In this document: one piece after another, positions 2,920-30,206 of the stretch | How positions within the stretch are numbered: position 1 is the first letter of the stretch | Layout: each line of letters starts with the position of its first letter | Assembly (NCBI GenBank): GCA_013306675.1 | Contig: JABLUY010000291.1 | Location: forward strand, 2,414 to 41,819 | Direction: 5' to 3' | Length of the DNA stretch: 39,406 bases | From: Thraustochytrium sp. TN22 | Taxonomy: Eukaryota > Sar > Bigyra > Thraustochytrida > Thraustochytriidae | The notes under the pieces: model-generated | Seen by the model: the letters and a program-made list of their open reading frames with translations, nothing else | Told to the model about the DNA's origin: nothing | The model's database searches: none | Translations under genes and position numbers: made by a program

Positions 2920-2990
2920 GCGCGAATGGTTGAAGGGTACAATAGCTGTTTGCCATGCGGCTGGTCCGGGTTCGAGTCCCGGTTCGCGCT
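2920..2990 (+). tRNA. tRNA-Gly(GCC): tRNA-Gly (anticodon GCC), copy 1
   Basis: Folds as a complete cloverleaf. The acceptor stem is GCGCGAA/TTCGCGC (7 bp, perfect), the D stem GTTG/CAAT with loop AAGGGTA, the anticodon stem GCTGT/GCGGC with loop TTGCCAT, a 4-nt variable loop, and the T stem CCGGG/CCCGG with loop TTCGAGT. Loop positions 34-36 read GCC, so it decodes GGC and GGU glycine codons. Internal A- and B-box promoter sequences are present. The encoded discriminator base is T, CCA is not encoded, and six T residues follow at 2993. The same 71 bp occur unchanged three more times nearby. Confidence 0.96.
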
Positions 2991-2992
2991 TC

Positions 2993-2998
2993 TTTTTT
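2993..2998 (+). terminator. Pol III T-run terminator, tRNA-Gly copy 1
   Basis: Six T residues three bases past the tRNA end, the usual RNA polymerase III stop. Confidence 0.8.
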
Positions 2999-3150
2999 GC
3001 CGACCAAACTGGCGATAGGCCTCTTTTTAGGCTGCTTGAGCTGCTCTGAGCTCTGCTCTGAGCTCAGTTCTTGAGCATCGCGCGTATCGATCATCGCGCA
3101 ACCCCGGCCCTCAGGCAAGCAACCTGGGAGCTCTGGGCGAAAAAATGATT

Positions 3151-3234
3151 GCTCGGCAAGACTTGCTCGGCAAGACTTGCTCGGCAAGACTTGCTCGGCA
3201 AGACTTGCTCGGCAAGACTTGCTCGGCAAGACTC
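3151..3234. repeat. 14-bp palindromic tandem array (6 copies)
   Basis: Six head-to-tail copies of GCTCGGCAAGACTT, the last ending in C. Across each unit boundary CTTGC-TCG-GCAAG can form a 5-bp stem, so the array is a row of potential small hairpins. It lies between tRNA copies 1 and 2. No coding potential. Confidence 0.88.
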
Positions 3235-3495
3235 TCAGAAAGCCCTTGACGCCGTCATGTCGTTGCAAGCATCGATCCGCTCTTTTGCTCTGTGATCATC
3301 ACAGCCGATACACGAGGCTGGGCACGGACTCCCCTTCCACTTAACCTCCCTGCGACGCTGTAGGCTTAGCCACAGAGGCCTTCTTTCGCTGGCTTGCACG
3401 GGTAGGTCATGAAGCTCCACTCCAATCCTCGAGACCATCCCGTGCAAAGCGGTGCGAAAAGGGTCAATACCTAACGCTGCTTTCCGACAACTTGG

Positions 3496-3566
3496 GCGCG
3501 AATGGTTGAAGGGTACAATAGCTGTTTGCCATGCGGCTGGTCCGGGTTCGAGTCCCGGTTCGCGCT
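3496..3566 (+). tRNA. tRNA-Gly(GCC): tRNA-Gly (GCC), copy 2
   Basis: Identical in all 71 positions to the gene at 2920, with the same cloverleaf, GCC anticodon and T discriminator. Its 5' flank differs: the hairpin-bearing leader of the other three copies is missing here. A five-T run follows at 3568. Probably functional, because body and internal promoter are intact. Confidence 0.95.
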
Positions 3567-3567
3567 C

Positions 3568-3572
3568 TTTTT
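3568..3572 (+). terminator. Pol III T-run terminator, tRNA-Gly copy 2
   Basis: Five T residues two bases past the tRNA. Confidence 0.75.
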
Positions 3573-3781
3573 GCTACCGCGAGGGCGCTTCTTTTGCTAT
3601 TACAGGGAGTGTATGTCGACTAGCCTTTTCGTTTTTTGGGGCTGCAGTCGGAGAGGAGATGACTCATCACAAAACCAAGATTGCAAAGCCGAATGCAAAA
3701 CCAATGGACCTCCATCTTCATTCATACCATGCACACCAACTTGTAAATGGCCAAAAAGGGGCTATCTCTGTGTGACGATTT

Positions 3782-3790
3782 AAAAAAAAA
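3782..3790 (-). terminator. Pol III T-run terminator, tRNA-Gly copy 3
   Basis: Nine A residues on the plus strand, read as nine T just past the minus-strand tRNA. Confidence 0.8.
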
Positions 3791-3792
3791 GA

Positions 3793-3863
3793 AGCGCGAA
3801 CCGGGACTCGAACCCGGACCAGCCGCATGGCAAACAGCTATTGTACCCTTCAACCATTCGCGC
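3793..3863 (-). tRNA. tRNA-Gly(GCC): tRNA-Gly (GCC), copy 3, inverted
   Basis: Reverse-complement copy, identical in all 71 positions to the gene at 2920. Its leader (CAACAACCAGCAATGGC...TTGCGT) matches the leaders of copies 1 and 4 with a few changes, so an extended block rather than the tRNA alone was copied and inverted. The hairpin in this leader is weaker than in the other two. Confidence 0.95.
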
Positions 3864-4245
3864 ACGCAATTGCTTTAAGGCCATTGCTGGTTGTTGAGAT
3901 GTCCGTTGGTCCAGACACTTATTTAACGTAGTGTTGGTAGAGAAGGAACTCCGAGGCACTCATTGTTAGAGCTAAGATTGGGACATCCCCTGGTGCATGA
4001 GCACTGTCTCAGCATGTTGGCATTCACTTTTGCAGATGACGCCAGATTTGGTAGAGCTCCTTTACCAGGAATGTGTGTGGTAACGTTAAGGATGATGGTG
4101 TAGGTTCCACTGGCAGTCAACTCGTTTCTGCAAGGAGCGAGCACCGTGTCACAAGAGCAAGCCATCAGTACACGTGCAAAAGTATATCAATAGCAATAGG
4201 GTAGGTCGATTCAACAACCAGCAATGGCTCAAAAGCCCATTGCGT
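3864..4245. other. Spacer between tRNA copies 3 and 4
   Basis: Contains the leader of inverted copy 3 at the left and the leader of copy 4 at the right (from about 4212). The middle is lower in GC than the genes. No coding frame resembles a protein I know. Confidence 0.55.
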
Positions 4246-4316
4246 GCGCGAATGGTTGAAGGGTACAATAGCTGTTTGCCATGCGGCTGGTCCGGGTTCG
4301 AGTCCCGGTTCGCGCT
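4246..4316 (+). tRNA. tRNA-Gly(GCC): tRNA-Gly (GCC), copy 4
   Basis: Fourth identical copy of the 71-bp gene. About 35 bp before and 35 bp after it match copy 1 closely, which points to a segmental duplication of roughly 140 bp. T discriminator, no encoded CCA, and a ten-T run at 4320. Confidence 0.96.
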
Positions 4317-10482: not shown

Positions 10483-10553
10483 GCGTCACTAGTTTAGGGG
10501 CAAAATTCGGATTTCCCATGTCCGTGCGCCGGGTTCGAGTCCCGGGTGACGCT
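10483..10553 (+). tRNA. tRNA-Gly(CCC): tRNA-Gly (anticodon CCC)
   Basis: Complete 71-nt cloverleaf. The acceptor stem is GCGTCAC/GTGACGC, the D stem GTTT/AAAT with loop AGGGGCA, the anticodon stem CGGAT/GTCCG with loop TTCCCAT (anticodon CCC, decoding GGG), a 4-nt variable loop, and the T stem CCGGG/CCCGG with loop TTCGAGT. As in the GCC genes, the discriminator position is T and no CCA is encoded. A six-T run follows at 10557. The T arm is identical to that of the GCC genes while the rest differs, as expected for an isoacceptor. Confidence 0.94.
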
Positions 10554-11928
10554 CACTTTTTTGCTCCTCTTTTTGGTCCATATCGGCGCTGCAGCAGGCA
10601 GTGCTCAGCACCACGACCTGGCGAATGACTCAAGACCTCGCAGCTCGCGGCTGCCAGCTGGGTAGCAGCTGCTGCAGCATCCAGCGCAGCACGTCGGGCC
10701 CGAGCGCTTCCGGCAGCCAGAGGCGGCTTCCAGCAAGCTGCGCCGGCGCAGGTTGGTCGCGGCTGGCTGGTCCGCGACTCCGGGCTGCCACTGGCACTGG
10801 CCATGATACCTAGTATAGCAGGCAGTGTGATGACGCTCCGAGGTGCGCGGGCGGCGGAAGCTGCAGAGCCGCGAACTTTTGCGGCGCGGGTGAGGCGAGG
10901 CGAGGCGCGGCGAGGCGAGGCGCGGCGAGGCGAGGCGAGGCAAGCCCTGGCGAGGTCGAGCGAGGTCGCGAGGCAAGCTTGCAGCCATCCGATTCATGGC
11001 ATAGTTACGAGCAACGCAGTGCATGGCCTCATGACCTAGGCTAGGCCGAGCCTCTGGATTTGCCATCGCCGCGTCGCGGATGAGGCCAAGCAGGCCGCTC
11101 GCGCCGCACGCGCCTGCTCGGCGCGCTCAGCGACAGCTAGCTCCAAGTTGCCTCCAAGTTGCCTCCAAGAGTCCAAGCTTGCTCGCAACGCTGACAGAGA
11201 TCTTGCTGACCTGTGCCAGTGGCTGGCGGCGGTGCGTGTGCGCACCTCAGGCTCGGCGCTGCGGCGCTGCGCTGCGCTGCGCTGGCGCCAGTGGTGCCGG
11301 TGGCAGCCGGTCACGTGGTGGCTGGCTGGCCGCCAGCGCCTGCCTGCTGGCCGGCCGTGGCGCTCGTTGGTGCTCGCCTGCAGCTCGCTGCTCGCCTGCC
11401 ATCGTGCGTGCGCCTCGTGATCGCTCGCGGCCACCTCTGAGCTGAGCTGAGCGTCTCTAGCTAGCTAGATAACCTCTGCGGTGCGGCGGGAAATGACGGC
11501 GAAGCGAGCCGCGCTGCGCTGCGCTCAGAGCTGCGCTGCGCTGCGCTGCGCTGCGCTCCGAGCTGCGCTGCGCTCATGAGAGCTGCGCTGTTGCGCAGGT
11601 GCTTGGCTTCAATGGCTTGGCTTGAGCGCGGCGCGGCGCGGCGCAAGCCAGGTCAGTGTCAGTGATGGTCGCCGCGGCGCGGGATCCACTGGCACGCAGC
11701 ACTGGCAGTGCAGCGCCGCACTGACTCGACCCGACTCGACCCGACTCGACGACTCGGACTCGCATACAAATCGTGGGTTCGCTGGCGGCGGCGGCAGAGG
11801 GCGATCGCGGGCGCGCGCGAGTCGGCATCGCGGCGGAGGCGGCGGCGACGCGACGCGGCGCGGCGCGGCGCAGCGCGGGCGGGCAGGCGGGCGAGCGGCG
11901 GGCGGAAAGAGAGAGGAGACAGGACAAG
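10554..11928. other. Gene-free stretch rich in pentanucleotide repeats; IDH promoter at right
   Basis: Holds pentamer-based arrays: GGCGA/GGCGC at ~10889-10943, GCGCT at ~11264-11283 and again at ~11511-11574, GCGCG at ~11625-11644, a ten-base CCGACTCGAC array at ~11723-11755, and GCGGC-type runs at ~11851-11871. A CTAGCTAGCTAG cluster sits at ~11456-11468. The right end must contain the IDH promoter and 5' UTR. No protein gene supported. Confidence 0.6.
10557..10562 (+). terminator. Pol III T-run terminator, tRNA-Gly(CCC)
   Basis: Six T residues four bases past the tRNA. Confidence 0.8.
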
Positions 11929-13470
11929 ATGATGCGCGCGGTGGCGACGGCGCGGACGGCGCGGCGGCAGCTGTCGTCGGCCGCGACGTCGAGCGGCAAG
12001 AAGGTGGAGCTGCCGCCGATGGTGTTCATCAAGGGCGAGGAGATGACGCGGTACTGCATGCAGCTGATCCTGGACAAGTGGATCGAGCCGCACTTCGACA
12101 CCAAGAACTGGGAGTACTACGACCTGAGCTGCAAGGCGCGTGACGACACCGAGGACAAGGTGCTGCGCGACGCCGTGGCGGCCGGCGCTCGCATCAAGGC
12201 CATCTTCAAGGAGCCCACCGTGACGCCCACCGAGGTGCAGAAGAAGAAGATGGGCCTGCGCAAGACGTGGGGCAGCCCGAACGGCGCCATGCGCCGCGGC
12301 TGGAACGGCATTACCATCAGCCGCGACACCATCATGATCGAGGGCATGGAGCTGGGCTACAAGAACCCGGTGCTCTTCGAGCGCCACGCCGTGGGCGGCG
12401 AGTACAGCGCCGGCTACGCCACCGTGGGCAAGGGCGAGCTGCGCACGCTCTATTACCCGGACGGCGTCGACCCGGAGAAGGACCCCAAGGCGGGCCGCCT
12501 CGTGGACGCGCGCCACCTCAAGGACAACGAGTCCGCCGTCGTCACCTACGACAACCCGCTCGACAACGTCACCGACCTGGCGCACCACTTCTTCACGCGC
12601 TGCCTCGCCGCGCGCGTCACCCCGTACGTCGTCACCAAGAAGACCGTCTTCAAGTGGCAGGAGGGCTTCTGGACCCGCCACAAGGAGGTCTTTGACGAGC
12701 ACTACCGCGAGCGCTTCCGGGAGGCCGGCCTCCTCAAGAACACCGGCGGCGAGCTCCGCCACCTCATCAGTGACGCCGCCACCATGCAGCTCATCCGCTG
12801 GACCGATGGCGGCTTCGGCTGCAGCTCCCACAACTACGACGGCGACATGCTCACCGACGAGCTCGCCCAGATCCACCGCTCCCCGGGCTTTATCACCAGC
12901 AACCTCATCGGCAAGGCCGAGGACGGCACCATGATCAAGGAGTTCGAGGCGTCCCACGGCACCGTCGCCGACATGTGGGAGGACCACCTCGACGGCGAGG
13001 AGACCAGCCTCAACCCGCTCGGCCTCGTTGAGGCCCTCATCGGCGCCATGCAGCACTCCGCGGCCCTCTCCAACTCCTCCGAGGAGGCCTTCATCGTCGA
13101 CTTCACCGACAAGATGCGCTCCACCATCCACAAGGCCTTCGTCGCCGGCAAGGGTACCCGCGACATCTCTGGCGAGGCTGGCCTCACCACCGAGGCCTTT
13201 GTCGATCTCGTTGCCGATGTCCTCAACGGCAACGACAAGGCCATCGAGGACCTCACCGAGGCCAGCGCCGCCGAGGCCGAGGCTGGCAAGGTCAAGCCCA
13301 AGACCAACCCCAGCTTCCGCCTCGTTGACAAGGAGCAGATGCAGGCCTTCTTTGCCGCCCTCGATGCCGACAAGAACGGCGTCATCGACTTTGACGAGTT
13401 CGAGTCCGGCATGATCCGCCTCGGTGTCTTCCCCAAGAAGTACTTTCCCGACGGCGCCCCCAAGTTCTAA
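11929..13470 (+). CDS. Type II (homodimeric) isocitrate dehydrogenase, probably NAD+-dependent, mitochondrial, with C-terminal EF-hand
   Basis: Oxidatively decarboxylates isocitrate to 2-oxoglutarate. The 513-residue protein aligns with eukaryotic NADP-IDH through SPNG, the CKNYDGD-equivalent metal site (HNYDGDMLTDELAQ) and ASHGT. Two things differ. First, the residues that grip the 2'-phosphate of NADP in this family (Arg-His in GTVTRHYR) are Asp348-Met349 here (GTVADMW), which points to NAD+. I recall the same Asp-Met pair from the NAD-linked homodimeric IDH of the alga Ostreococcus. Second, residues 479-490 (DADKNGVIDFDE) are a textbook EF-hand calcium loop after the catalytic domain. The N-terminus (MMRAVATARTARRQLSS) looks like a mitochondrial presequence, which is why I chose the Met at 11929; the frame is open upstream to 11773. 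A poly(A) signal lies at 13561. Confidence 0.93.
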   Translation: MMRAVATARTARRQLSSAATSSGKKVELPPMVFIKGEEMTRYCMQLILDKWIEPHFDTKNWEYYDLSCKARDDTEDKVLRDAVAAGARIKAIFKEPTVTPTEVQKKKMGLRKTWGSPNGAMRRGWNGITISRDTIMIEGMELGYKNPVLFERHAVGGEYSAGYATVGKGELRTLYYPDGVDPEKDPKAGRLVDARHLKDNESAVVTYDNPLDNVTDLAHHFFTRCLAARVTPYVVTKKTVFKWQEGFWTRHKEVFDEHYRERFREAGLLKNTGGELRHLISDAATMQLIRWTDGGFGCSSHNYDGDMLTDELAQIHRSPGFITSNLIGKAEDGTMIKEFEASHGTVADMWEDHLDGEETSLNPLGLVEALIGAMQHSAALSNSSEEAFIVDFTDKMRSTIHKAFVAGKGTRDISGEAGLTTEAFVDLVADVLNGNDKAIEDLTEASAAEAEAGKVKPKTNPSFRLVDKEQMQAFFAALDADKNGVIDFDEFESGMIRLGVFPKKYFPDGAPKF

Positions 13471-14157
13471 ATCGGTACTCCTTTTGAACACACACTTTAC
13501 CACCACCAAGCGCAAACAACCAACCCAACCCACAAGCGCTTCACAGACCAACAGACAGACAATAAATTGATACTTTGGATAAATTACCACTGTGCATCAT
13601 GTGCGCACCAATCGCTCATTTCATCACATTGCTCGTTTTGCTTGCTACTAGCGTGCATCATCATCGTCCTCGAGTGACAATGCTACTTCCTTCCTACTGC
13701 CACCACGCCACCACGAAGTGAGCTCGCTCGGTGCGCGCAATCGCCCATCTCTCCCAGAACGCGAGACTCCTTGTCGAGCCTTCGCGGAGCATCATCTTCG
13801 GACGACAATTCGAGACTTTGCGCGAAACGCATCGTCTTGGTTCAAAGCTGGCTCTGCCGAGTCTGCTGCCACCAGTGCTCCCTCTGTTGTGTTTTTTTCA
13901 TCTGTCTCTGCGCCAGCATCACCGGGACGGACGAAATATGCAACAGCAGTCCAGCCAAAACATGCGCGAGACTCCTTGTCGCCTCTTCAGGTAACATCAT
14001 CCTCGGATGATAATTCGAGACTTGCGCGAAACGCATCCTCACGGCTCAAACCCTCTGTTGTGTCCTTTCCATCTGTCTCTGCGCCAGCATCACCACGACG
14101 GACGAAATATGCAACAGCAGTCCAGCCAAAACATGCGCGAGACTCCTTGTCGCCTCT
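13471..14157. other. Convergent 3' region of IDH and SLX1
   Basis: Contains the IDH 3' UTR and, from 13761, two extra copies of the SLX1 3' end (see the repeat entry). The plus-strand frame over 13718-14359 is the antisense of those copies. Confidence 0.6.
13561..13566 (+). promoter_or_regulatory. Candidate poly(A) signal of the IDH gene
   Basis: AATAAA 90 bp past the IDH stop, inside an A/C-rich 3' UTR. Confidence 0.55.
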
Positions 14158-14300
14158 TCAGGTAACATCATCCTCGGATGATAATTCGAGACTTGCGCGA
14201 AACGCATCCTCACGGCTCAAACCCTCTGTTGTGTCCTTTCCATCTGTCTTTGAGCCAGCGTCGCCCCGACGAACCGGATCTGCAGCGGCAGTCCAGTCAA
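13761..14300. repeat. Tandem copies of the SLX1 3' end (205- and 171-bp units)
   Basis: Blocks beginning GCGAGACTCCTTGTCG start at 13761, 13966 and 14137. The third contains the last ~36 codons and stop of SLX1 on the minus strand. The second, read on the minus strand, gives nearly the same peptide end (SREDAFRASLELSSEDDVT then stop). The first is more diverged and has an insertion of about 35 bp. The two outer copies lie beyond the SLX1 stop and look like duplicated gene ends. Confidence 0.87.
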
Positions 14301-15519
14301 AAGGCTCGGTGTTGTCTTGGTCCAAAATGACGACCTCCTTGCCGGTGATATCCTGCTGAGCCGCGCCACCCCCTCCGTCATGGTCATGGTGGTCATCCTC
14401 GCCGGCCTCTTCTTCATCTTCATCTTCATTTTCTTGCTCCTCTTGATCTTCTTCTTCTTCTCCACTCGAGCCATCATTGTCATCGTCCCCATCGTCATCA
14501 TCTCCAGAGTCAAGAAGCAGGTTCAAAGAACGGCGTCGATTCTGTGCGCTGCCCTCTGGGGCGGCCGTGACTTCCTCCGCATCGGCACCTGCACTTGCGT
14601 TTGCATGCAAAATCACGTTTGCCTCCGAAGTCACCTCCGCACCCGCATCGGCTTTTGCACCTGCATCCACAGTGGCGTTGTCGCCAGCGTCTTCACCAGC
14701 GCTCAGCACAAGCTTGGTGCGCACGAGCTCGGCCCAGTTGAGCTCCTGATCACAGAGCGGACAGGGCCCGCCGTCAGGCCGAATGGCGTCGGCGGCGGGC
14801 AAGAAGCGCCGGGCCAGGCAAACGGGATGCGAGAGCAGGCCACAGGTCTCGTGGGCGAGCGCCGCCCGGCCGAGCTCAACGGGCGCAGCGCATAAACTAC
14901 ACGAGGCCTCAGGGGCCGCGAGGCGACTTGCCTGCACGGATGCGACGTCCTCTCGAAAAGCCTCTACAATGTCGCGCGCCTCTACAATCATGTGTCGAGC
15001 CAGCGGCACGGTCTGCTGCATCTGCTCGAAAAACACCCAGTCTTCCTGGCGGTTGAAGCAGACGCGCAGGCTCATGTCCGCGAATGGCTTACACGAAGAC
15101 AGCATCACCTTGAGCTCGAGTAGCTTGCGACGCACGCCGTGCTTGCGGCCCATGCCGCGCACCTTGGTGTGTGGCTCCATTTGCTCGCGCGTGAGTCGCC
15201 CTTTGTGTGGGTTTTGCCACGCCCACTCGAAGCTCAGTCCAGAGAACCGCGAGGGGAGGCCCATCACGACACACACGAAGCGCCACGGCCTGTGGAAGCG
15301 AGTCCGCTTCGCGCCCATGGTCAGCTCGCCGTTGTGCTGCCGTAGTCGCCGCCCTGGGTCCACCGTGTACCCGACATACGTGCGAGACCCATCTCCGTGC
15401 ACAGGTGTCAGCAGGTAGCAGCAGTGCATTCCTCGCAGGGTCACGCTTGTCGATAGAAGGAGAGCTCGACGCCGCCCTCGAGACCGGAGGCAAGAGCAGC
15501 ACGAAGGAGAGTCGTGCAC
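14158..15519 (-). CDS. SLX1: Structure-specific endonuclease subunit SLX1 (GIY-YIG nuclease)
   Basis: Catalytic subunit of the SLX1-SLX4 nuclease, which cuts branched DNA such as Holliday junctions, flaps and replication forks in the nucleus. The GIY-YIG domain is clear: CYLLT (34-38), TYVGYT with YVG at 48-50, the Arg-rich helix RRLRQHNGEL (57-66) and the metal-binding Glu98 in FEWAWQNP. The RING-like zinc domain follows with C207, C210, C226, H231, C234, C253 and C256. The last ~200 residues are acidic low complexity and include VVIL-D (396-400), a good SUMO-interacting motif. The Met at 15429 (residue 31) would give a start more typical of the family; I report the longer frame. SLX4 is not in this window. 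The 3' end is tandemly duplicated downstream. Confidence 0.93.
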   Translation of the reverse strand: MHDSPSCCSCLRSRGRRRALLLSTSVTLRGMHCCYLLTPVHGDGSRTYVGYTVDPGRRLRQHNGELTMGAKRTRFHRPWRFVCVVMGLPSRFSGLSFEWAWQNPHKGRLTREQMEPHTKVRGMGRKHGVRRKLLELKVMLSSCKPFADMSLRVCFNRQEDWVFFEQMQQTVPLARHMIVEARDIVEAFREDVASVQASRLAAPEASCSLCAAPVELGRAALAHETCGLLSHPVCLARRFLPAADAIRPDGGPCPLCDQELNWAELVRTKLVLSAGEDAGDNATVDAGAKADAGAEVTSEANVILHANASAGADAEEVTAAPEGSAQNRRRSLNLLLDSGDDDDGDDDNDGSSGEEEEDQEEQENEDEDEEEAGEDDHHDHDGGGGAAQQDITGKEVVILDQDNTEPFDWTAAADPVRRGDAGSKTDGKDTTEGLSREDAFRASLELSSEDDVT

Positions 15520-16087: not shown

Positions 16088-19015
16088 ATGTCGGGCGATG
16101 TGGCGACGCTGCTGAGCAACACGCTGAGCCCGGTGGCGGAGACGCGGCGCAGCGCGGAGAAGGCCCTGGACCAATTGACGGCGCAGCAAGGCTTCGCGCT
16201 GGGGCTGTTGGGGCTGCTGGAGAAGGCGGACACGGCGCCGGGCGTGCAGCAGGCCGGGTCGGTGTACTTCAAGAACCTAGTCAAGAAGCACTGGGAGAAT
16301 GACATCGAGAACAAGGTGCTGAGCGCGACGGATCGCGAGCAGATCAAGGCGAACCTGCTGACGCTCATGTGCCAGGTGAACCGGCAGGTGCAGGTGCAGC
16401 TGAGCGAGGCGATCCGCATCATCGGCAAGAGCGACTTCCCGGAGAAGTGGCAGGGCCTGCTGCCGGACCTGACGCAGAAGCTGAACTCGACGCAGGACTT
16501 CACCGTGATTCTGGGCCTGCTCGAGACGGCCAACACGCTCTTCAAGATGTTCCGCAACGAGGCGGCCTCGGACGAGCTGCACATCAAGCTCAAGTACTGC
16601 CTGGAGCAGTTCCAGGAGCCGCTGCTGCTCTTTTTCAAGCAGTGCATGTCGATGCTGGATCCCAACGCGGGCAACAAGGACACGCTCGAGAAGGTCTTCA
16701 CGGCGCTGCGCCTGCTGGTGCGCATCTGGTTCTCGCTCAACTGGCAGGATCTGCCCGAGTTCTTTGAGGACCACATGGCCGAGTGGATGACCGAGTTCCA
16801 CAAGCTCCTCACCTACGAGAACAAGCTGCTTGAGAGCGACGATGACGAGCAGCCCGGCAAGGTCGAGCTTGTGCAGCAGGCCATCGTGGAGAACCTCAAC
16901 CTCTACCTGACCAAGTACGAGGAGGACTTCAGCCAGCACGTCAAGACCTTTGCTATCACCGTCTGGAATCTGCTCAACAAGACGCCCACCTCAGCCAGCT
17001 ACGATGGTCTTGTTACCATGAGCATCCGCTTCCTGGCGCAGCTCATCGGCAACGTGCGCCAGAAGGACCTCTTCGCGCAGGAGTCCACGCTGCAGGAGAT
17101 CATCGAGAAGATCGTCCTGCCCAACCTGCGCCTGCGCGAGACAGACGTGGAGAACTTTGAGGACAACCCCATGGAGTACATCCGCCGCGACATTGAGGGC
17201 TCCGACTCGGACACGCGCCGCCGCACGGCCTGCGACCTCGTGCGCGCCATGTGCCGCCACTTTGACGAGCGCACCACCAAGCTTTGCGAGACCGTCGTCA
17301 CGGCGCTCGTCAACGAGTACCGCGGCAACCAGGCGCAGAACTGGCACCAGATGGACACGGCTGTCACGCTCATGCTGGCCGTCGCCGTGCGCCGCCACTC
17401 GCTCGTGGGCGGCGTCACCGAGGTCAACCCCAACATCAACGTCAACGAGTTCTTCTCGCAGCTCATCCTGCCCGAGCTCATGGCCGCCAACGTCGACTCG
17501 CAGCCCGTCGTCAAGGCCGACGTCATCAAGTTCTTCACCACTTTCCGCAACCAGATGCCGCGCGACATCGTGCTTCAGGTCCTCCCGCAGCTCGCCAACC
17601 TGCTCAAGGCGAGCTCCTTCGTCGTCCACACCTACGCTGCGCAGTCCATCGACCGCATCCTTACCATCCGCGACCAGACCAAGCCCGACCCCAAGCCGCT
17701 CGTCTACGGGCCCGACGACCTCAACACGGTTCTCGGCCCGGCCATGACCAACCTCTTCGCCATCCTCGAGTCCTATGAGGGCGGCGTTGAGAATGAGTAC
17801 GTCGCCAAGGCCGTCATGCGCATCATCACGCGCGCGCACCCGCAGACCATCGCCCAGGCCGTCGAAGGCGTCCTCGACAAGCTCAATACCGTCCTGGCCC
17901 GCGTCTGCGCCAACCCGCAAAACCCCAGGTTCATCCACTTCCTCTTCGAGTCCATCGCCGCCCTCATCCGCGCCGCCTGCTCCGTCAACCCGCAGGCCGC
18001 CGAGGACTTCGAGAAGCGCCTCATGCCGGCCTTCCAGGCCGTCCTTCAGCAGGAGATCGCCGAGCTCACCCCGTACGTCTTCCAGATCCTCGCCCAGCTT
18101 CTTGAGCTGCGCCCCTCCGCCATCTCCCAGGGCTACCTCTCGCTCTTCCAGCCCCTGCTCCACCCGGACAACTGGCGCAACACGGGCAACCACCCGGCGC
18201 TCGTGCGCCTGCTCGAGGCCTACATGCGCAAGGCCGCCCGCGAGACCGTCGGCTCCAACCCCAAGCAGCTCGAGGGCATGCTCGGCATCTTTCACCTCCT
18301 CCTCACGCAAAAGTCCACCGCCGAGATGTCCTTCCGCCTCATCATCGGCATCGTCGAGTTCCTCCCGCCAGAGGCTTACCGAAACTACCTGCCCCAGATC
18401 TTCAACCTCGCCGTCACCACCCTCGGCCGCATCCGCACCAAGGCCTTCGCGCTGTCCATGACCAACTTTGTCTCCGTCATCGTCGGCAAGCACGGCGTCC
18501 AGGACGTCCAGGCCGCCATGCAGAACATTCAGGGCCTCGGCTTCACCGAGTTCCTGCGCGACGTTTGGATCCCCTCTTCCTCCGCCATCAAGAGTGCCCA
18601 GGACCGCAAGGCCTGCGCCATCGCGCTCACCCGCGTCCTCTGCGAGGCGCCCGACCTCCGTGTCCCGCCTCTTGCCGAGTCCGTCTGGGCCAACACCTTC
18701 GTCGCGGTCCTCAACATTTTCGAGACCCCGGCCCCGGCCGCCGACCTCGATTCTCACGAGGAGCTTCTCGAGCAGATTACCGAGACCGGCTACGCCTCCT
18801 CCTTCTCCAAGCTCGTTTACGGCCAGACCGAGCTCCGCGACTCCTTCAAGGAGATCGATGACCCGCGTGCCTTCTTCGTGCAGAGCATCGTCAAGGCCTC
18901 CCAGACCACGCCGGGCACCTTCCAGCCCCTCATTGCCAATGCGCTTCAGGGCAAGCCCAACTTCACCTCCTTTTTCGCCAACCTCCTTCAGACCGCCGGC
19001 CTCTCTCTCAGCTAA
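16088..19015 (+). CDS. CSE1L: Exportin-2 (CSE1/CAS), importin-alpha re-exporter
   Basis: Carries importin-alpha back from nucleus to cytoplasm as a complex with Ran-GTP. The 975-residue protein matches the family length (human 971) and reads as HEAT-repeat alpha-solenoid throughout. The importin-beta N-terminal domain covers roughly residues 20-95 (AEKALDQLTAQQGFALGLL...LLTLMC). The conserved central Cse1 block NPMEYIRRDIEGSDSDTRRR is at ~360-380, and the C-terminal CAS/CSE domain continues to the end. The start at 16088 (GCAACCATGT) matches the usual N-terminus. The frame is open upstream to 15743, but that part is unrelated and crosses the promoter and the GGC run. It is a single exon, unusual for this gene in most eukaryotes. 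Confidence 0.96.
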   Translation: MSGDVATLLSNTLSPVAETRRSAEKALDQLTAQQGFALGLLGLLEKADTAPGVQQAGSVYFKNLVKKHWENDIENKVLSATDREQIKANLLTLMCQVNRQVQVQLSEAIRIIGKSDFPEKWQGLLPDLTQKLNSTQDFTVILGLLETANTLFKMFRNEAASDELHIKLKYCLEQFQEPLLLFFKQCMSMLDPNAGNKDTLEKVFTALRLLVRIWFSLNWQDLPEFFEDHMAEWMTEFHKLLTYENKLLESDDDEQPGKVELVQQAIVENLNLYLTKYEEDFSQHVKTFAITVWNLLNKTPTSASYDGLVTMSIRFLAQLIGNVRQKDLFAQESTLQEIIEKIVLPNLRLRETDVENFEDNPMEYIRRDIEGSDSDTRRRTACDLVRAMCRHFDERTTKLCETVVTALVNEYRGNQAQNWHQMDTAVTLMLAVAVRRHSLVGGVTEVNPNINVNEFFSQLILPELMAANVDSQPVVKADVIKFFTTFRNQMPRDIVLQVLPQLANLLKASSFVVHTYAAQSIDRILTIRDQTKPDPKPLVYGPDDLNTVLGPAMTNLFAILESYEGGVENEYVAKAVMRIITRAHPQTIAQAVEGVLDKLNTVLARVCANPQNPRFIHFLFESIAALIRAACSVNPQAAEDFEKRLMPAFQAVLQQEIAELTPYVFQILAQLLELRPSAISQGYLSLFQPLLHPDNWRNTGNHPALVRLLEAYMRKAARETVGSNPKQLEGMLGIFHLLLTQKSTAEMSFRLIIGIVEFLPPEAYRNYLPQIFNLAVTTLGRIRTKAFALSMTNFVSVIVGKHGVQDVQAAMQNIQGLGFTEFLRDVWIPSSSAIKSAQDRKACAIALTRVLCEAPDLRVPPLAESVWANTFVAVLNIFETPAPAADLDSHEELLEQITETGYASSFSKLVYGQTELRDSFKEIDDPRAFFVQSIVKASQTTPGTFQPLIANALQGKPNFTSFFANLLQTAGLSLS

Positions 19016-24152: not shown

Positions 24153-27100
24153 ATGAACGAGGCGGCGGCGGCGGAAGAGCAAAAGCTTTTCGAACGGCGC
24201 GGAGGCGGGCGGAGCGCGCGCGGCGGCATGGCGGCGGCGGGCGCGGGCGGCGGCGGCAGCGCGGCGCGCGGCGCGGCGCGCGGCGGCGCGAGCGGCGGCA
24301 TGAACGGGACGCGGCGCGTCGGGACGGACGCGGCGGCGGCTCCAGCAACAGCGGACGAAGCTGACGCCGCCTCGACCCCGCGCGCGGACGCGGACGACGG
24401 AGGGTACAACCCATTCGCGGACTCCGACGAGGAGGACGAGGGCCACATGAGCTCGCTCGAGGTGCTCGAGGTCCCGCTGCTAGCCGGTGAGGACCACGAT
24501 GACCTCGATTCGCTCGAGGGCGCCTCGACGCGGCTCAGGGCGCGCAAGCCCTGCTGTACGCGCCGCAGGTGCTGCTGCTGCGCGCTGCTCTGCGGGCTGC
24601 CACTCCTCGTGCTCGTTGTCTTTGGCATCTTCTTTGTCGCGAAGCTCTTCCAGGTTTACCACGCCTGCGAGTCGGACGAGGGCTGCGGATCCTTGGATTA
24701 TGTGCAGCTCGCCGACCTGTGCGGGCAGCCGTCCGATACGGGGCGAGACATGTCTTTCGACCTCGACGTGCGAGCGCTGCTCGATCTACCCGCTGCGAGC
24801 TGGCTTGCCATCTACATGGACGACGTCAGCCTCGAGGTACACTACAACGGATCGCAGATCATGCGTACCTCGCCAATGACGCCTGTCTTCACGCAGGGCG
24901 ACGACGAGCCTAGCGTCGCCATCCTTCCCCTCGGCAAGTCCGTTCTGAGCCTGCGCAATGCAGAGGTCCTTGTCCCCAACGCCGCCGCCGGTCGCTGGCT
25001 CGGTGATGATGACGATGACGACCTCGACGACCACGACGACGACAAGGGCGACGATGATGATGACCGCCAGGCCTCCGATGCCATCCATCGCCTCGCCAAC
25101 CTCACCTGGCTTGTGCTCAACAACATGGACTTTGACGTTGACGTGCGTGTGCGCGCCGAGGTCGGCGTTGACCTCACATTCTTGCAGCTGCCCATCCGCA
25201 CCAGCATCGACCGTTGGACGCACGCGCGCTACTCCGCTGCCGACCACGCCTTCGTGATGGTGGGCCGAGCGAGTGGGCCGGGCCGCCGCCTCCTGGCGCC
25301 TGCGCTTCCTCAGCGCATCCTCAGCGACGACGCAAAACCCGGCGCGTCCACCTTTTCCATCAACATGTCCAGCGTTCACTTCAATGAGGTCGGCGACATG
25401 CGCAAGGCCCTCAACGTGTCGGCCTCGGCCGCGGTGCAGCTCGCCGCGGATGCGCCGGCACTCCGCACGCACGTGCCAGCCATTGATGGCATCCAGATCT
25501 TCGCCTCCAACGTCTCGGTGGCGCCTGATCTCGACACCGTGACCAAGGACCCGCGTGTACACCTCATCGCTACGGCGGCGCTTGGCGCCACCTCCACGGA
25601 CCGTGTCTTCGACCTTGTCTCTACGGTCAACACCACCACCGAGACTGCCAGCCTGGACGCCATGCAAATGGTCGCCAAGGCTTACGTCACTTCGCAGGGC
25701 AACGCATCCTCCTTCTTCTACGTCAAGGTTCTGCCCAACAGCGACAACTGCTTCCTTCACGGCCTGCTCTCCGCACTGCCGCCCATTCGATATGAGCTCC
25801 AACCCATGGACCGCGCTGAGGTTAACCTTACACAGACGCCGAAATTGGTTCCGCGCCGGCGCAACGCCGGCAATCCGCTTGTCCGAGCCCTGCAGGTCGA
25901 CAGCATCGCCTCGGATGAGGCGTCGCAGGGTGTATTGAGCCTGAGCCTTTTCACCAAGCCCAACGTAACCGGCCAGCTGCCCGAGGTCAAGCTCGCCGTC
26001 GCCTCACGCGGTCGGCGCACCGTGGAGGTCAAGGTGCCGACCACGGACATTGCGCTTCCCGGCCCCAGTTTGGACGTGGGCGTCCGCCTGCCGAACCCGG
26101 CTCTGCTCTGGAGCCAGCTGGTCGACGTCGGCTACGCACCAGACGCGCTCGACCTCGTTGTCCAGGGCTCCGATGAGGATAACCTCAGCCTGCTCTCGGC
26201 TATTCTCAGCAAGGTGACCTATGCCCTCGGCGGCGCCCGCGCCAGCGCCAGCGCGGGCCGCGCCGAGGCGAGTGTCCGGGGCGCTCCCAAGAACGACGAT
26301 CCCCCGAAAAACTCGGTGGAAACCTACCTTCGCTCAGATGCATCCACGGTGGACGCCGGTCTGGACATCAAGACAGCCGGTCTGAGCGAGTCGCTCGCCA
26401 TCGGCTTCCGCTGGGCCCCCGCGTGCGTCGCCGCCGGCCCTGTTGAAGTGTGGAATGCCAAGCACCGCGTGCGCATGGACCTCAGTGTACCGGCCATGGA
26501 GATGGGGCCTGGCACGCGCAACCGCGCCACCTTTAGCTTCCAATGGGAGGACCACACGGCGGGCCGCGGCTTCGGCGCCTTGGTTGACGACGTGCGCCGC
26601 CACGCCGATACTTCGCTGCTCCTTCGCCAGGGCGCCTGCGTGAACGTGACGCTCGTCGCGCTGCACAGGCTCGTGGCGACGCTCCCCGCAGCCGTCTTTC
26701 CAGGCCAGGCTCTCGCGTCGAGCGCCGGCGCCTCTTCCCAATGGCAGGTGGAGGCTGTGTTTGACGTCCTGCACTCGACGGGCTACGAAGGCGCGGCCAT
26801 TGACGTCGGCTGCGTCTCGGCCGGCACGCCTTGTGACGAAGAGGGCGCCGGCCTCCTCGTGCGCATCAAACCCCTGAGCCTGAGTGGCGCACTGCGTAAC
26901 ACCATCCTGCGGGTGCTCGAACTACCCAGCGTGCGCTTACTTCCGGTGCCGGGCGCCTCCGTAGAGCTGCACTCGCCGCGTATCTCTGCCTATGAGGCCA
27001 CCGGCGTTTCGCTTGCCACAACGCTCACCTTCGAGACGTCCACAAGCGAGGCGCTGCGTCGCATCGCCCAGGTGGAGGATCTGGGCGCCGACCTGCGCGG

Positions 27101-30100
27101 CGACAGCAGTCTCAATCTTCTCAGCGCCGCCGTTGGCTACCTGGTGGCGGCCGTACTCAGGGCCAACGACGCTGGCGGCGCGGCCATCCCTCGGGTCGAG
27201 CCGCGAGCTTCAATCGAGGCCGTGTCCGAGGAGATCGCGCTCGACGTCTTCTCTGGGCCCGACCACGTTCGTGTGCACATGGACTGCGCGCCGGCGCCGG
27301 AGCCGCCCCAGGCAACGCAGTTGCAGGTGCCGGCGCTGGACCTCACCATGGGGTCGCTTGGCGTTCTGTCCATGAGCGCGTGGAACATGTCGAGCGTCGG
27401 CCTTGCCACGCCGCTCACGGTCGACTACGAGGTGGACGCGTCCTTGGCACCAGCCGTGGCGGACCTCATCGGCGCGCTCGTGGACAAGCGGAGCTCCACT
27501 ATGCGCGTTCAGGCTGGCGCGCGCGTCGTGGACCTCACGCTCAACCTGACGGCCGTGTCGACGCGGGACCGCGCGCCGGCCGAGTACGCCCTGGAGATCA
27601 AGGGCGGCCGCACGAAGGACGGCGCGCGCGTGTCCGAGGTGAACTTGCCGTGTGTCCTGCCCAACCTCTGTCCCAAGGTGCCGCAAAACCTCAATGGCAA
27701 GGAGTACACGCTCATCTACGACCTTTTGGTCTCCTTGCGCGTGAGCGCGCGCGCATTTCGTCGTTTGCACCTGCGCGCGCCGCCGCTCGACATGGCGCTC
27801 AACGCGGACCGCCACAACCGCTTGCTCGACTTCTCGCTGCCGGCCGTCGACCTCAAGGTTGACACGCGCGAGTCCAATAAGATGGCGCTCGACCTGCGCC
27901 TGTCCATCGCAGATGTGCAGCTGCTGCGCGACGCGCTGCAGTCTCTCATGGACTCCGTCGCGCCCATCTCCTTCCGCGTCTTCGTGCCGCAGCAGCGCGA
28001 GCAGGCACTCCTGCGCACGCTCCTCAAAAGGGTCGACCTGACCTGGGCCTTCGCTGCGCAGTCTCCGGACGGCCGCCCCGTGCCGACGCCCAAGGAGCAA
28101 CAGTGGTGGTTTCCGCTTGCCAGCACGGGCGCATGGAATTTGGTGTACACGACCCCGCATGTCGCCTGCTTCGAGGTGGATATGCTCCTGCACAACCCAT
28201 CGCCGGTCACGGCGCTACTGCCGGACATGCACTGTAACGTGGCCTACCTGGTGGGCGGGCCGGAGGTCGACCCGCCACGCAAGCCTCTTGAGTTCGGCTA
28301 CGGCTACATTAACGACGGCGACCTGGTACTGCCAGGCAACGCCAGCACGCGAGTGCTTTCCACGCTCATCGCCGAGCAGCGCGATGTGCAGCCGCACGAG
28401 TGCAGCCCGGCGTCCATCTCGGATCCCGCGACGCGCCACAACTGCGTCATCTCGACGCTGCTGGAGAAGATGGTGGGCAAGACCGAGACGCACATCCTCG
28501 TCACAGCCAGCTTTCTGAACCCAGATGGCGAGCGGCTCACGGCCAACTTTGAGGCAGTCTTCCTCGAGGGCGAAACCGGCGCCGCTGTGCGCCCGTACAC
28601 GCCACCGCCGCGCTTCGCCAAGGACCTGCCCACCGGCGCCAACTCCTCCGCCTTGGACGAGTTCGTCGGCATCTTCCAGACGGTTAACGTGGACGGCTGG
28701 AGCACGGCGTGGCGCTCGCTCGTGGAGCAGGGCGTCGTGCTTCGCGTGCAAGTCGTGCTCAACAACCCGTTTGCCTTTCCAATCCGCGTCGACAGCTACA
28801 AGCTTGACCTCACCTTTGACGACTTCACGGGCGAGTACATTTGGGAGCTGCCCAGCTACTACCCGCCCCAGCTGCAGATCCCGCTCGTCACCAACCTGTC
28901 GGCGCCAGACCTCGACATGGTCATTCCGGGCAACTCAAGCATGGCGACGCCCGAGGCGTCCGTACGCCTGCAAGACCACCGCGTCGAGCTCGCCTGCCGC
29001 CTTTACAATGCCGCCGAGGCCATCAAGGAGCTCTGCGTGTCTGTACCGGGCGGTCTTTTCCAGGTCGGCGTCGGCACCTTCCGCTGGACGCAGCACTTTA
29101 ACATTTACAACGTCACGGCTGTCGGCCACAACGCCTGCCTGGCAGCGCCCGCCTGTACGCCCAAGCTGCTGGACCCGATCCCGGCGCCCGCCTGGGTCGC
29201 GGTCGGCTCGGCGTCCACGACGCCGGGGCCGAACCCTGCGCTCTTGCTGACCACGGGTGCCGGCGATGAGACCGGCGCCGTCTGGGCCGCGGACCGCCTC
29301 CCAGTGAGCGACGGCTTCGACCTGAGCTTCAAGGTGGAGTTCTTTGACAACGGAACCCTGGGCGGGGGCGACGGCGTCGCCATGGTGGTGCGGCGCGACG
29401 GCGACCAGCACGCACTCGGCTCGCGCTGCACCAACACTCCGTGCAATGGGTACGCGGACCTACCCGGCCCGAGCTTTGGCATCATCCTGTACCGGTCCAC
29501 CACGCACCACGTCGAGCTGCACGTGCTGATCGACGGTGAGTCCAAGCAAGACGTCGGCTTCGCGTCCTCGCCGGTGCTGCAGAACGCAATCGACGGCAAC
29601 CCGCACACGCTGCGCGTGTACTACTCCCGTGCGGATCGCAAGGTTTACGTCTTCTTCGACGGCGCTTGGATGCTCTCGGCCAACGTCTGGGAGCCCGCGC
29701 TGGTGGATTTGGGCGAGTGCTCCGCCGGCGGCAAGAAGGCGGACAAGTCTCAGTGCATCGACCTGGACGCCATCGCCGCGGAAGACGACGGCCACGCCTG
29801 GGTTGGCTTCACCGCTACCACGGGCTACACGATGCGCTCCCTGCAGCGCGTGTCGGACGTGAGCTTCCGTAACATTCTCGCGTCGCTGGAAAAGTCCATC
29901 TTGCTGGAAGACGGCCTGGTCATTGGCGAGCCTCAGCGAACGCACAAGGTCACGGTGGATCTGCGCGACACCTGCGGCGCCCCACTGCGGCGCGCGCTGA
30001 CCAAGACGCCCGACATCATGCTCGAGGATCCGCACGGTGCCACCTTCAGCCCGTGGAAGGTGACTGCCGACCCTCATGGCCTCATCGAGGTCGAGCTGGT

Positions 30101-30206
30101 GGCGCCAAAGGCAGGCACATACCATGTGCTGGCGCGCTACGCCGATGAACCTTCTGCAACTTTTGCTCGGCTCGGTGCTTTTCGCATCGTTGATGAGACG
30201 GGCTGA
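24153..30206 (+). CDS. Giant type II membrane protein with LEA2-like domains and a lectin-like C-terminal domain
   Basis: A 2017-residue protein in one exon. The N-terminal ~140 residues are Gly/Ala-rich, then acidic, and include YNPFADSDEED (NPF at 86-88, a motif known to bind EH domains of endocytic proteins). A Cys/Arg cluster (CCTRRRCCCC, likely palmitoylated) leads into one transmembrane helix at ~142-168, so the remaining ~1850 residues should be lumenal or extracellular. There I see an Asp-rich loop (~280-306) and several LEA2/WHy-like segments, for example NNMDFDVDVRVRAEVGVDLT (~325), HNPSPVTALLPDMHCNVAY (~1350) and NNPFAFPIRVDSYKLDLTF (~1535). A concanavalin/L-type-lectin-like domain follows (~1680-1910; GGGDGVAMVV), then an Ig- or filamin-like end (~1930-2015). 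Fungal vacuolar LEA2-type proteins share the TM-plus-repeats plan. The Met at 24018 is an alternative start but its extra codons are pentamer-repeat sequence. Confidence 0.75.
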   Translation: MNEAAAAEEQKLFERRGGGRSARGGMAAAGAGGGGSAARGAARGGASGGMNGTRRVGTDAAAAPATADEADAASTPRADADDGGYNPFADSDEEDEGHMSSLEVLEVPLLAGEDHDDLDSLEGASTRLRARKPCCTRRRCCCCALLCGLPLLVLVVFGIFFVAKLFQVYHACESDEGCGSLDYVQLADLCGQPSDTGRDMSFDLDVRALLDLPAASWLAIYMDDVSLEVHYNGSQIMRTSPMTPVFTQGDDEPSVAILPLGKSVLSLRNAEVLVPNAAAGRWLGDDDDDDLDDHDDDKGDDDDDRQASDAIHRLANLTWLVLNNMDFDVDVRVRAEVGVDLTFLQLPIRTSIDRWTHARYSAADHAFVMVGRASGPGRRLLAPALPQRILSDDAKPGASTFSINMSSVHFNEVGDMRKALNVSASAAVQLAADAPALRTHVPAIDGIQIFASNVSVAPDLDTVTKDPRVHLIATAALGATSTDRVFDLVSTVNTTTETASLDAMQMVAKAYVTSQGNASSFFYVKVLPNSDNCFLHGLLSALPPIRYELQPMDRAEVNLTQTPKLVPRRRNAGNPLVRALQVDSIASDEASQGVLSLSLFTKPNVTGQLPEVKLAVASRGRRTVEVKVPTTDIALPGPSLDVGVRLPNPALLWSQLVDVGYAPDALDLVVQGSDEDNLSLLSAILSKVTYALGGARASASAGRAEASVRGAPKNDDPPKNSVETYLRSDASTVDAGLDIKTAGLSESLAIGFRWAPACVAAGPVEVWNAKHRVRMDLSVPAMEMGPGTRNRATFSFQWEDHTAGRGFGALVDDVRRHADTSLLLRQGACVNVTLVALHRLVATLPAAVFPGQALASSAGASSQWQVEAVFDVLHSTGYEGAAIDVGCVSAGTPCDEEGAGLLVRIKPLSLSGALRNTILRVLELPSVRLLPVPGASVELHSPRISAYEATGVSLATTLTFETSTSEALRRIAQVEDLGADLRGDSSLNLLSAAVGYLVAAVLRANDAGGAAIPRVEPRASIEAVSEEIALDVFSGPDHVRVHMDCAPAPEPPQATQLQVPALDLTMGSLGVLSMSAWNMSSVGLATPLTVDYEVDASLAPAVADLIGALVDKRSSTMRVQAGARVVDLTLNLTAVSTRDRAPAEYALEIKGGRTKDGARVSEVNLPCVLPNLCPKVPQNLNGKEYTLIYDLLVSLRVSARAFRRLHLRAPPLDMALNADRHNRLLDFSLPAVDLKVDTRESNKMALDLRLSIADVQLLRDALQSLMDSVAPISFRVFVPQQREQALLRTLLKRVDLTWAFAAQSPDGRPVPTPKEQQWWFPLASTGAWNLVYTTPHVACFEVDMLLHNPSPVTALLPDMHCNVAYLVGGPEVDPPRKPLEFGYGYINDGDLVLPGNASTRVLSTLIAEQRDVQPHECSPASISDPATRHNCVISTLLEKMVGKTETHILVTASFLNPDGERLTANFEAVFLEGETGAAVRPYTPPPRFAKDLPTGANSSALDEFVGIFQTVNVDGWSTAWRSLVEQGVVLRVQVVLNNPFAFPIRVDSYKLDLTFDDFTGEYIWELPSYYPPQLQIPLVTNLSAPDLDMVIPGNSSMATPEASVRLQDHRVELACRLYNAAEAIKELCVSVPGGLFQVGVGTFRWTQHFNIYNVTAVGHNACLAAPACTPKLLDPIPAPAWVAVGSASTTPGPNPALLLTTGAGDETGAVWAADRLPVSDGFDLSFKVEFFDNGTLGGGDGVAMVVRRDGDQHALGSRCTNTPCNGYADLPGPSFGIILYRSTTHHVELHVLIDGESKQDVGFASSPVLQNAIDGNPHTLRVYYSRADRKVYVFFDGAWMLSANVWEPALVDLGECSAGGKKADKSQCIDLDAIAAEDDGHAWVGFTATTGYTMRSLQRVSDVSFRNILASLEKSILLEDGLVIGEPQRTHKVTVDLRDTCGAPLRRALTKTPDIMLEDPHGATFSPWKVTADPHGLIEVELVAPKAGTYHVLARYADEPSATFARLGAFRIVDETG

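Follow-up and report, generated by a model that had tools for sequence, protein, structure and literature searches.

The window, a stretch of 39,406 nucleotides from a contig of Thraustochytrium sp. TN22, carries an isocitrate dehydrogenase (IDH) gene that consists of a single intronless ORF (Table 1). The first-pass annotation had confined it to 12901-13470, a span that takes in just the final 189 codons plus the stop, while the gene really extends over 11929-13470. Two features reported there were recovered from the translation of the 513-aa ORF, namely Asp348-Met349 in place of the Arg-His of NADP-dependent enzymes and an EF-hand loop at residues 479-490 following the catalytic domain. Residues are numbered from the Met at 11929; if the second Met at 11932 is the start, all numbers shift by one.

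Table 1 Features of the EF-hand isocitrate dehydrogenase gene (positions in the window; Met at 11929 is residue 1).
Feature	Position	Strand	Basis and remarks
EF-hand NAD-type isocitrate dehydrogenase, whole gene	11929..13470	+	one exon, 513 aa; best PDB matches 6lkz and 6ixl
Probable mitochondrial presequence, residues 1-24	11929..12000	+	5 basic, 0 acidic residues
Catalytic type II IDH domain, residues 25-432	12001..13224	+	Pfam Iso_dh; top fold-search matches of the AF2 model are 6lkz and 6ixl
Asp348-Met349, position of Arg-His in NADP enzymes	12970..12975	+	sequence, alignment
Linker, residues 433-470	13225..13338	+	between both Pfam matches; partly low model confidence
EF-hand helix-loop-helix and C-terminal tail, residues 471-513	13339..13467	+	Pfam EF-hand_1
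Canonical 12-residue calcium loop DADKNGVIDFDE, residues 479-490	13363..13398	+	sequence; aligned with PtIDH1 loop

Elsewhere in the window, a tandem array at 13880-14302 (171-bp unit or 57 codons, 2.5 copies, 92% matches) overlaps the 3' end of an SLX1-like gene on the minus strand (14158-15429). Four tRNA-Gly(GCC) genes, three on the plus and one on the minus strand, lie within 1.4 kb at 2920-4316, and a tRNA-Gly(CCC) gene is found beyond this cluster at 10483-10554. A 2017-aa frame at 24153-30206 has a weak match to a Pfam lectin domain (E 3.8e-5; 24.1 bits, cut-off 78.3), with no further Pfam family at E <= 0.01.

Profile searches with the 512-aa version of the protein placed Pfam Iso_dh at residues 35-427 (E 6.5e-23) and EF-hand_1 at residues 471-496 (E 9.7e-6), the latter with 25.2 bits and therefore 0.2 bits short of the curated cut-off of 25.4; the remaining Pfam EF-hand models were further below their own cut-offs. 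A PROSITE-style EF-hand pattern matched once in the whole protein; when the 82-residue tail was shuffled 100,000 times, 33 of the shuffled versions matched it. Taken with the alignment to the diatom enzyme PtIDH1, these results bear out the earlier assignment of a real EF-hand, and its position downstream of the catalytic domain in one chain is the arrangement of the PtIDH1-like subtype. Third codon positions have a GC content of 0.96 for the catalytic part and 0.88 for the EF-hand part, the frame is unbroken between them, and nothing in the gene structure points to a transcript lacking the EF-hand. In the fold search, the AF2 model of the protein ranked 6lkz and 6ixl first. Residues 481-513 of the full model stayed under pLDDT 50, leaving the EF-hand unresolved, and a stand-alone model, weak as well (mean pLDDT 55.1), placed helices at 468-478 and 488-498. 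The EF-hand is poorly modelled both in the full-length protein and alone, and our claims on it do not rest on the model.

A mitochondrial localisation, as proposed in the first-pass annotation, is probable in view of a basic presequence devoid of acidic residues, which is missing from the aligned bacterial relatives. An amphipathic presequence was considered and rejected, since the hydrophobic moment of the N-terminal 24 residues is not exceptional (<=0.46 in the first eight windows, a value that several windows in other parts of the protein exceed).

The best match in the PDB was PtIDH1 of Phaeodactylum tricornutum (6lkz), aligned over residues 23-501 with the EF-hand included (E 3.5e-185, 61% identity), followed by the NAD-IDH of Ostreococcus tauri, OtIDH (6ixl and others), over residues 21-431 (E 2e-176, 66% identity); the best NADP enzyme came only after both, at E 1.7e-47. 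The Arg-His position has a role in cofactor discrimination (PMC7460673, PMC4360740), and, according to PMC7460673, the pair is Asp-Leu in PtIDH1 and Asp-Met in OtIDH, both of which are reported to be NAD-linked. The cofactor residues and the identity to these two enzymes support the earlier proposal of a single-subunit NAD-IDH in so far as it concerns a type II enzyme of the NAD type. The EF segment itself is identical to that of PtIDH1 at only 11 of 36 positions, yet the loop ligand positions, which correspond to the calcium ligands Asp459-Glu470 of PtIDH1 (PMC7460673), are canonical all the same, as would be expected if selection keeps metal binding.

In the bacterial and archaeal collection, one scan yielded 12 loci, one with a distant match (28% identity) and 11 with close relatives (55-63%), the latter all on metagenome-assembled genomes (MAGs) whose titles read Rickettsiales, Alphaproteobacteria or, in one case, Proteobacteria (L024-L034). 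None of the ten full-length close relatives extends into the EF-hand part. Nine of them carry Asp and one Asn at position 348, and position 349 is equally divided between Met and Gln (5/10 each). As to the earlier question whether Asp-Met and the EF-hand always go together, they do not: five of these ten bacterial proteins and the Ostreococcus chain combine Asp-Met with the lack of an EF-hand, and PtIDH1 has an EF-hand with Asp-Leu. Eukaryotic contamination of the bacterial MAGs was considered and rejected after checking two flanking genes at each of two of the 11 loci (L025, L028), all four of which match families common in, although not exclusive to, bacteria. Among 385 genomes from the class of one bacterial relative, 271 had matches, of which that of the centre genome alone fell in the NAD-like group (687 bits, next best 218 bits); this alphaproteobacterial form is therefore rare. 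Its presence in six out of six searched genomes reflects their choice, as their loci hold that gene, and two of these six MAGs (G005 and G006, the genomes of L030 and L033) additionally carry an ordinary type II IDH with the AHGTVTR motif. Viral contigs gave 112 pattern matches and no relative.

In a midpoint-rooted tree of 25 rows, the thraustochytrid and Phaeodactylum proteins are sisters (support 96/91), and Ostreococcus joins them at 90/87, short of the 95/80 mark. The tree was built on 421 of 547 columns, with columns filled in less than 30% of rows dropped and the EF-hand columns thus absent. The three eukaryotes and the 11 bacterial NAD-like rows form an unresolved fork that is split from the 11 AHGTVTR-motif rows with 100/100 support across a very long deep branch; overall, 7 of 22 inner branches were starred. 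The thraustochytrid enzyme consequently belongs with OtIDH and PtIDH1, apart from the ordinary type II NADP-IDHs. The simplest reading of these sequences, three of them eukaryotic, would be a shared alphaproteobacterial-type enzyme that gained its EF-hand within the stramenopiles; transfer may have gone in either direction, and Ostreococcus may have lost an EF-hand.

The host assembly (37.9 Mb in 453 contigs, completeness not given) contains six stretches matching Pfam Iso_dh, which we read as three genes: the EF-hand IDH and one gene each on contigs C185 and C442. The gene on C185 encodes 3-isopropylmalate dehydrogenase (LeuB; TIGR00169, 370 bits against a cut-off of 353), and that on C442 (G000:C442:311926-313473) an E. 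coli-type NADP-IDH interrupted by an intron. With TIGR00183, the first exon of the latter gene scored 415 bits (model positions 8-304 of 417), below the whole-protein cut-off of 567, as may happen with an incomplete piece. The last exon matched bacterial IDH chains best, NADP enzymes included (E 2.5e-29), IDH3 alpha chains only weakly (E ~3e-4), and retains APKYAGLDKV and VTYDF, which we take to contain NADP-contact residues. A heteromeric IDH3 was rejected for this host, because in the draft genome TIGR00175 found only pieces of the genes for LeuB and the E. coli-type enzyme (at best 132.9 bits, with a cut-off of 432.4), and the EF-hand IDH gene was absent from its four matches in the genome at E <= 0.1. 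In the draft genome, TIGR00127 found the EF-hand IDH gene alone, thus no second, NADP-type type II IDH, and a monomeric IDH (PF03971) had no match, while citrate synthase, the positive control, was found. Judged from the draft genome, the citric acid cycle of the host thus probably has the EF-hand IDH as its sole NAD-IDH. P. tricornutum is reported to have two putative IDHs, PtIDH1 and the NADP-specific type III PtIDH2 (PMC8287583), so that the NADP enzyme accompanying the same NAD enzyme seems to differ between the two organisms, E. coli-type in the thraustochytrid and type III in the diatom.

Furthermore, the mitochondrial calcium uniporter (MCU) profile matched at three places in the genome, two in frames of more than 500 residues and a third, weaker one with one internal stop, which makes calcium uptake into the matrix plausible in this host. 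Such uptake would suit an enzyme that has to tolerate calcium no less than one that senses it. One of the frames (503 aa; L008 on G000:C138, MCU match at 16589-16978) has an EF-hand-like stretch N-terminal to the MCU domain (PF00036, E 9e-5, 22.2 bits, 3.2 under the cut-off of 25.4), a fusion not mentioned in the accessible portion of an MCU evolution paper (PMC7423614).

Together, these data lead us to propose, with a probability of about 0.75, that the gene encodes the thraustochytrid counterpart of PtIDH1, a mitochondrial homodimeric type II NAD-IDH with an EF-hand for dimer integrity and calcium tolerance. The homodimer would oxidise isocitrate with NAD+, because Asp348 occupies the spot where NADP enzymes hold the 2'-phosphate. 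The C-terminal EF-hand would most likely pack on the dimer and keep the active enzyme together, and the calcium loop would keep it working as matrix calcium rises rather than act as an on-switch. Fold, cofactor residues, loop and the finding of no other NAD-IDH gene in the assembly come from the sequence of the thraustochytrid itself. NAD specificity, dimer role and calcium tolerance come from PtIDH1 only, and we infer that they carry over. For the diatom enzyme, PMC7460673 describes NAD+ dependence with undetectable NADP+ activity, and its authors assign to the EF-hand a role in dimer integrity and calcium tolerance. For the nearest relative, this answers the earlier question whether a calcium role has been described: one is published for PtIDH1, although not as activation. 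Counting against our proposal, an EF-hand is missing from the OtIDH chain and from the bacterial relatives, so that the fold does not generally require one; the EF-hand scores under the Pfam cut-offs and is poorly modelled, and the best NCBIfam matches, though well below cut-off, are NADP-IDH models.

Two alternatives concern the role of calcium. Activation of the enzyme by matrix calcium bound to the EF-hand, as a substitute for the way calcium activates animal IDH3, would be in line with the canonical loop, with the MCU matches including the frame with its own EF-hand-like stretch, and with the probable status of sole NAD-IDH. The data on PtIDH1 speak against such a switch: activity was 3.9% with calcium alone and 4.8% with no metal, 107% with Mn plus calcium and 58% with Mg plus 2 mM calcium, and a loop mutant with four residues changed to alanine was near-normal without added calcium (78 vs 87 U/mg; PMC7460673). 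Since calcium does not activate this closest relative, direct calcium activation finds no support in it, and the vertebrate-IDH3-like sensing put forward in the first-pass annotation looks unlikely to us. The Mg value weighs on our own proposal as well, given that tolerance in PtIDH1 was seen with Mn. We similarly give little credence to a purely structural dimer clamp in which calcium has no role, even though deletion of the EF-hand turned PtIDH1 into an inactive aggregate with loss of the dimer, and the EF-hand contributes at least 1700 A2 to the dimer interface (PMC7460673). A mere clamp would not readily account for ligand positions that stay canonical in so divergent an EF segment, nor for the behaviour of the PtIDH1 loop mutant, which in the presence of Mn lost activity upon addition of calcium, significantly at 0.1 mM, while the wild type retained it under 2 mM calcium (PMC7460673).

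Use of NADP+ or of both cofactors is very improbable, considering the Asp-Met pair shared with OtIDH (Asp-Leu in PtIDH1) and a separate E. coli-type NADP-IDH in the genome; nothing direct speaks for it, although cofactor use is only deduced and the best NCBIfam matches, all below cut-off (194.8 vs 335 bits; TIGR00127 for eukaryotic NADP-IDH 176.9 vs 397), are NADP-IDH models.

For lipid accumulation, the set of IDH genes bears on a commonly cited model repeated in a thraustochytrid study, according to which the IDH of the cycle is AMP-dependent and is shut off as AMP falls, so that citrate accumulates (PMC6923395). With 1 mM AMP, PtIDH1 and OtIDH kept 97.9% and 89.6% activity, and 0.01 mM AMP gave at most 102% and 104%, respectively (PMC7460673, Table 3), so that AMP does not really activate either enzyme; the text of that paper describes excess AMP as strongly inhibitory, at odds with its own table. 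A literature search for AMP-dependent IDH together with Schizochytrium returned no match. If the EF-hand IDH is the only NAD-IDH, as deduced from one draft assembly, the AMP model would need another target in this host. As no IDH3, type II NADP-IDH or monomeric IDH was found in the draft, the falling-AMP trigger becomes questionable and testable. A doubtful extension would be that isocitrate oxidation in an oleaginous protist devoid of IDH3 responds to calcium rather than to AMP, with citrate export for lipid synthesis set by matrix calcium and NADH in place of the commonly assumed AMP-deaminase route.

The host genome also encodes subunit A of an omega-3 PUFA synthase (2539.7 bits, 3044-residue frame), near which a 2083-residue frame lies on the opposite strand; this gene presumably fits a thraustochytrid, a heterotrophic stramenopile. 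A profile search for light-harvesting proteins gave no match in the draft genome, and the EF-hand fusion would therefore not be tied to photosynthesis. In the BLAST survey of PMC7460673, EF-hand IDHs were restricted to a small number of marine algae, each of them a stramenopile that has a secondary plastid, and among the literature matches listed, which mostly leave subscription journals uncovered, none described such an enzyme from a thraustochytrid or labyrinthulomycete.

Compared with known systems, the EF-hand IDH shares with mammalian IDH3 the reaction and the presumed place in the citric acid cycle. The mammalian enzyme is a calcium-responsive heteromeric NAD-IDH of the type I branch, a hetero-oligomer without an EF-hand. 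The type II NAD-like IDHs of the bacterial MAGs are 55-63% identical, mostly share the Asp at position 348 and have no EF-hand. OtIDH (PDB 6ixl, 6ixn, 6ixt, 7e2w) is an NAD enzyme with the same Asp-Met pair, and its 418-aa PDB chain stops at the catalytic domain without an EF-hand. Closest is PtIDH1 (6lkz; PMC7460673), which has the presequence, the type II NAD-type catalytic domain and the single C-terminal EF-hand in common with the thraustochytrid protein, with Asp at the cofactor position in both, followed by Leu in PtIDH1 and Met in the thraustochytrid. Its host is a photosynthetic diatom, whereas the thraustochytrid appears to be non-photosynthetic. The EF-hand NAD-IDH as a class has been described and crystallised from the diatom before, and because the class is known, the value of the present finding lies in its setting, an apparently oil-making, non-photosynthetic relative.
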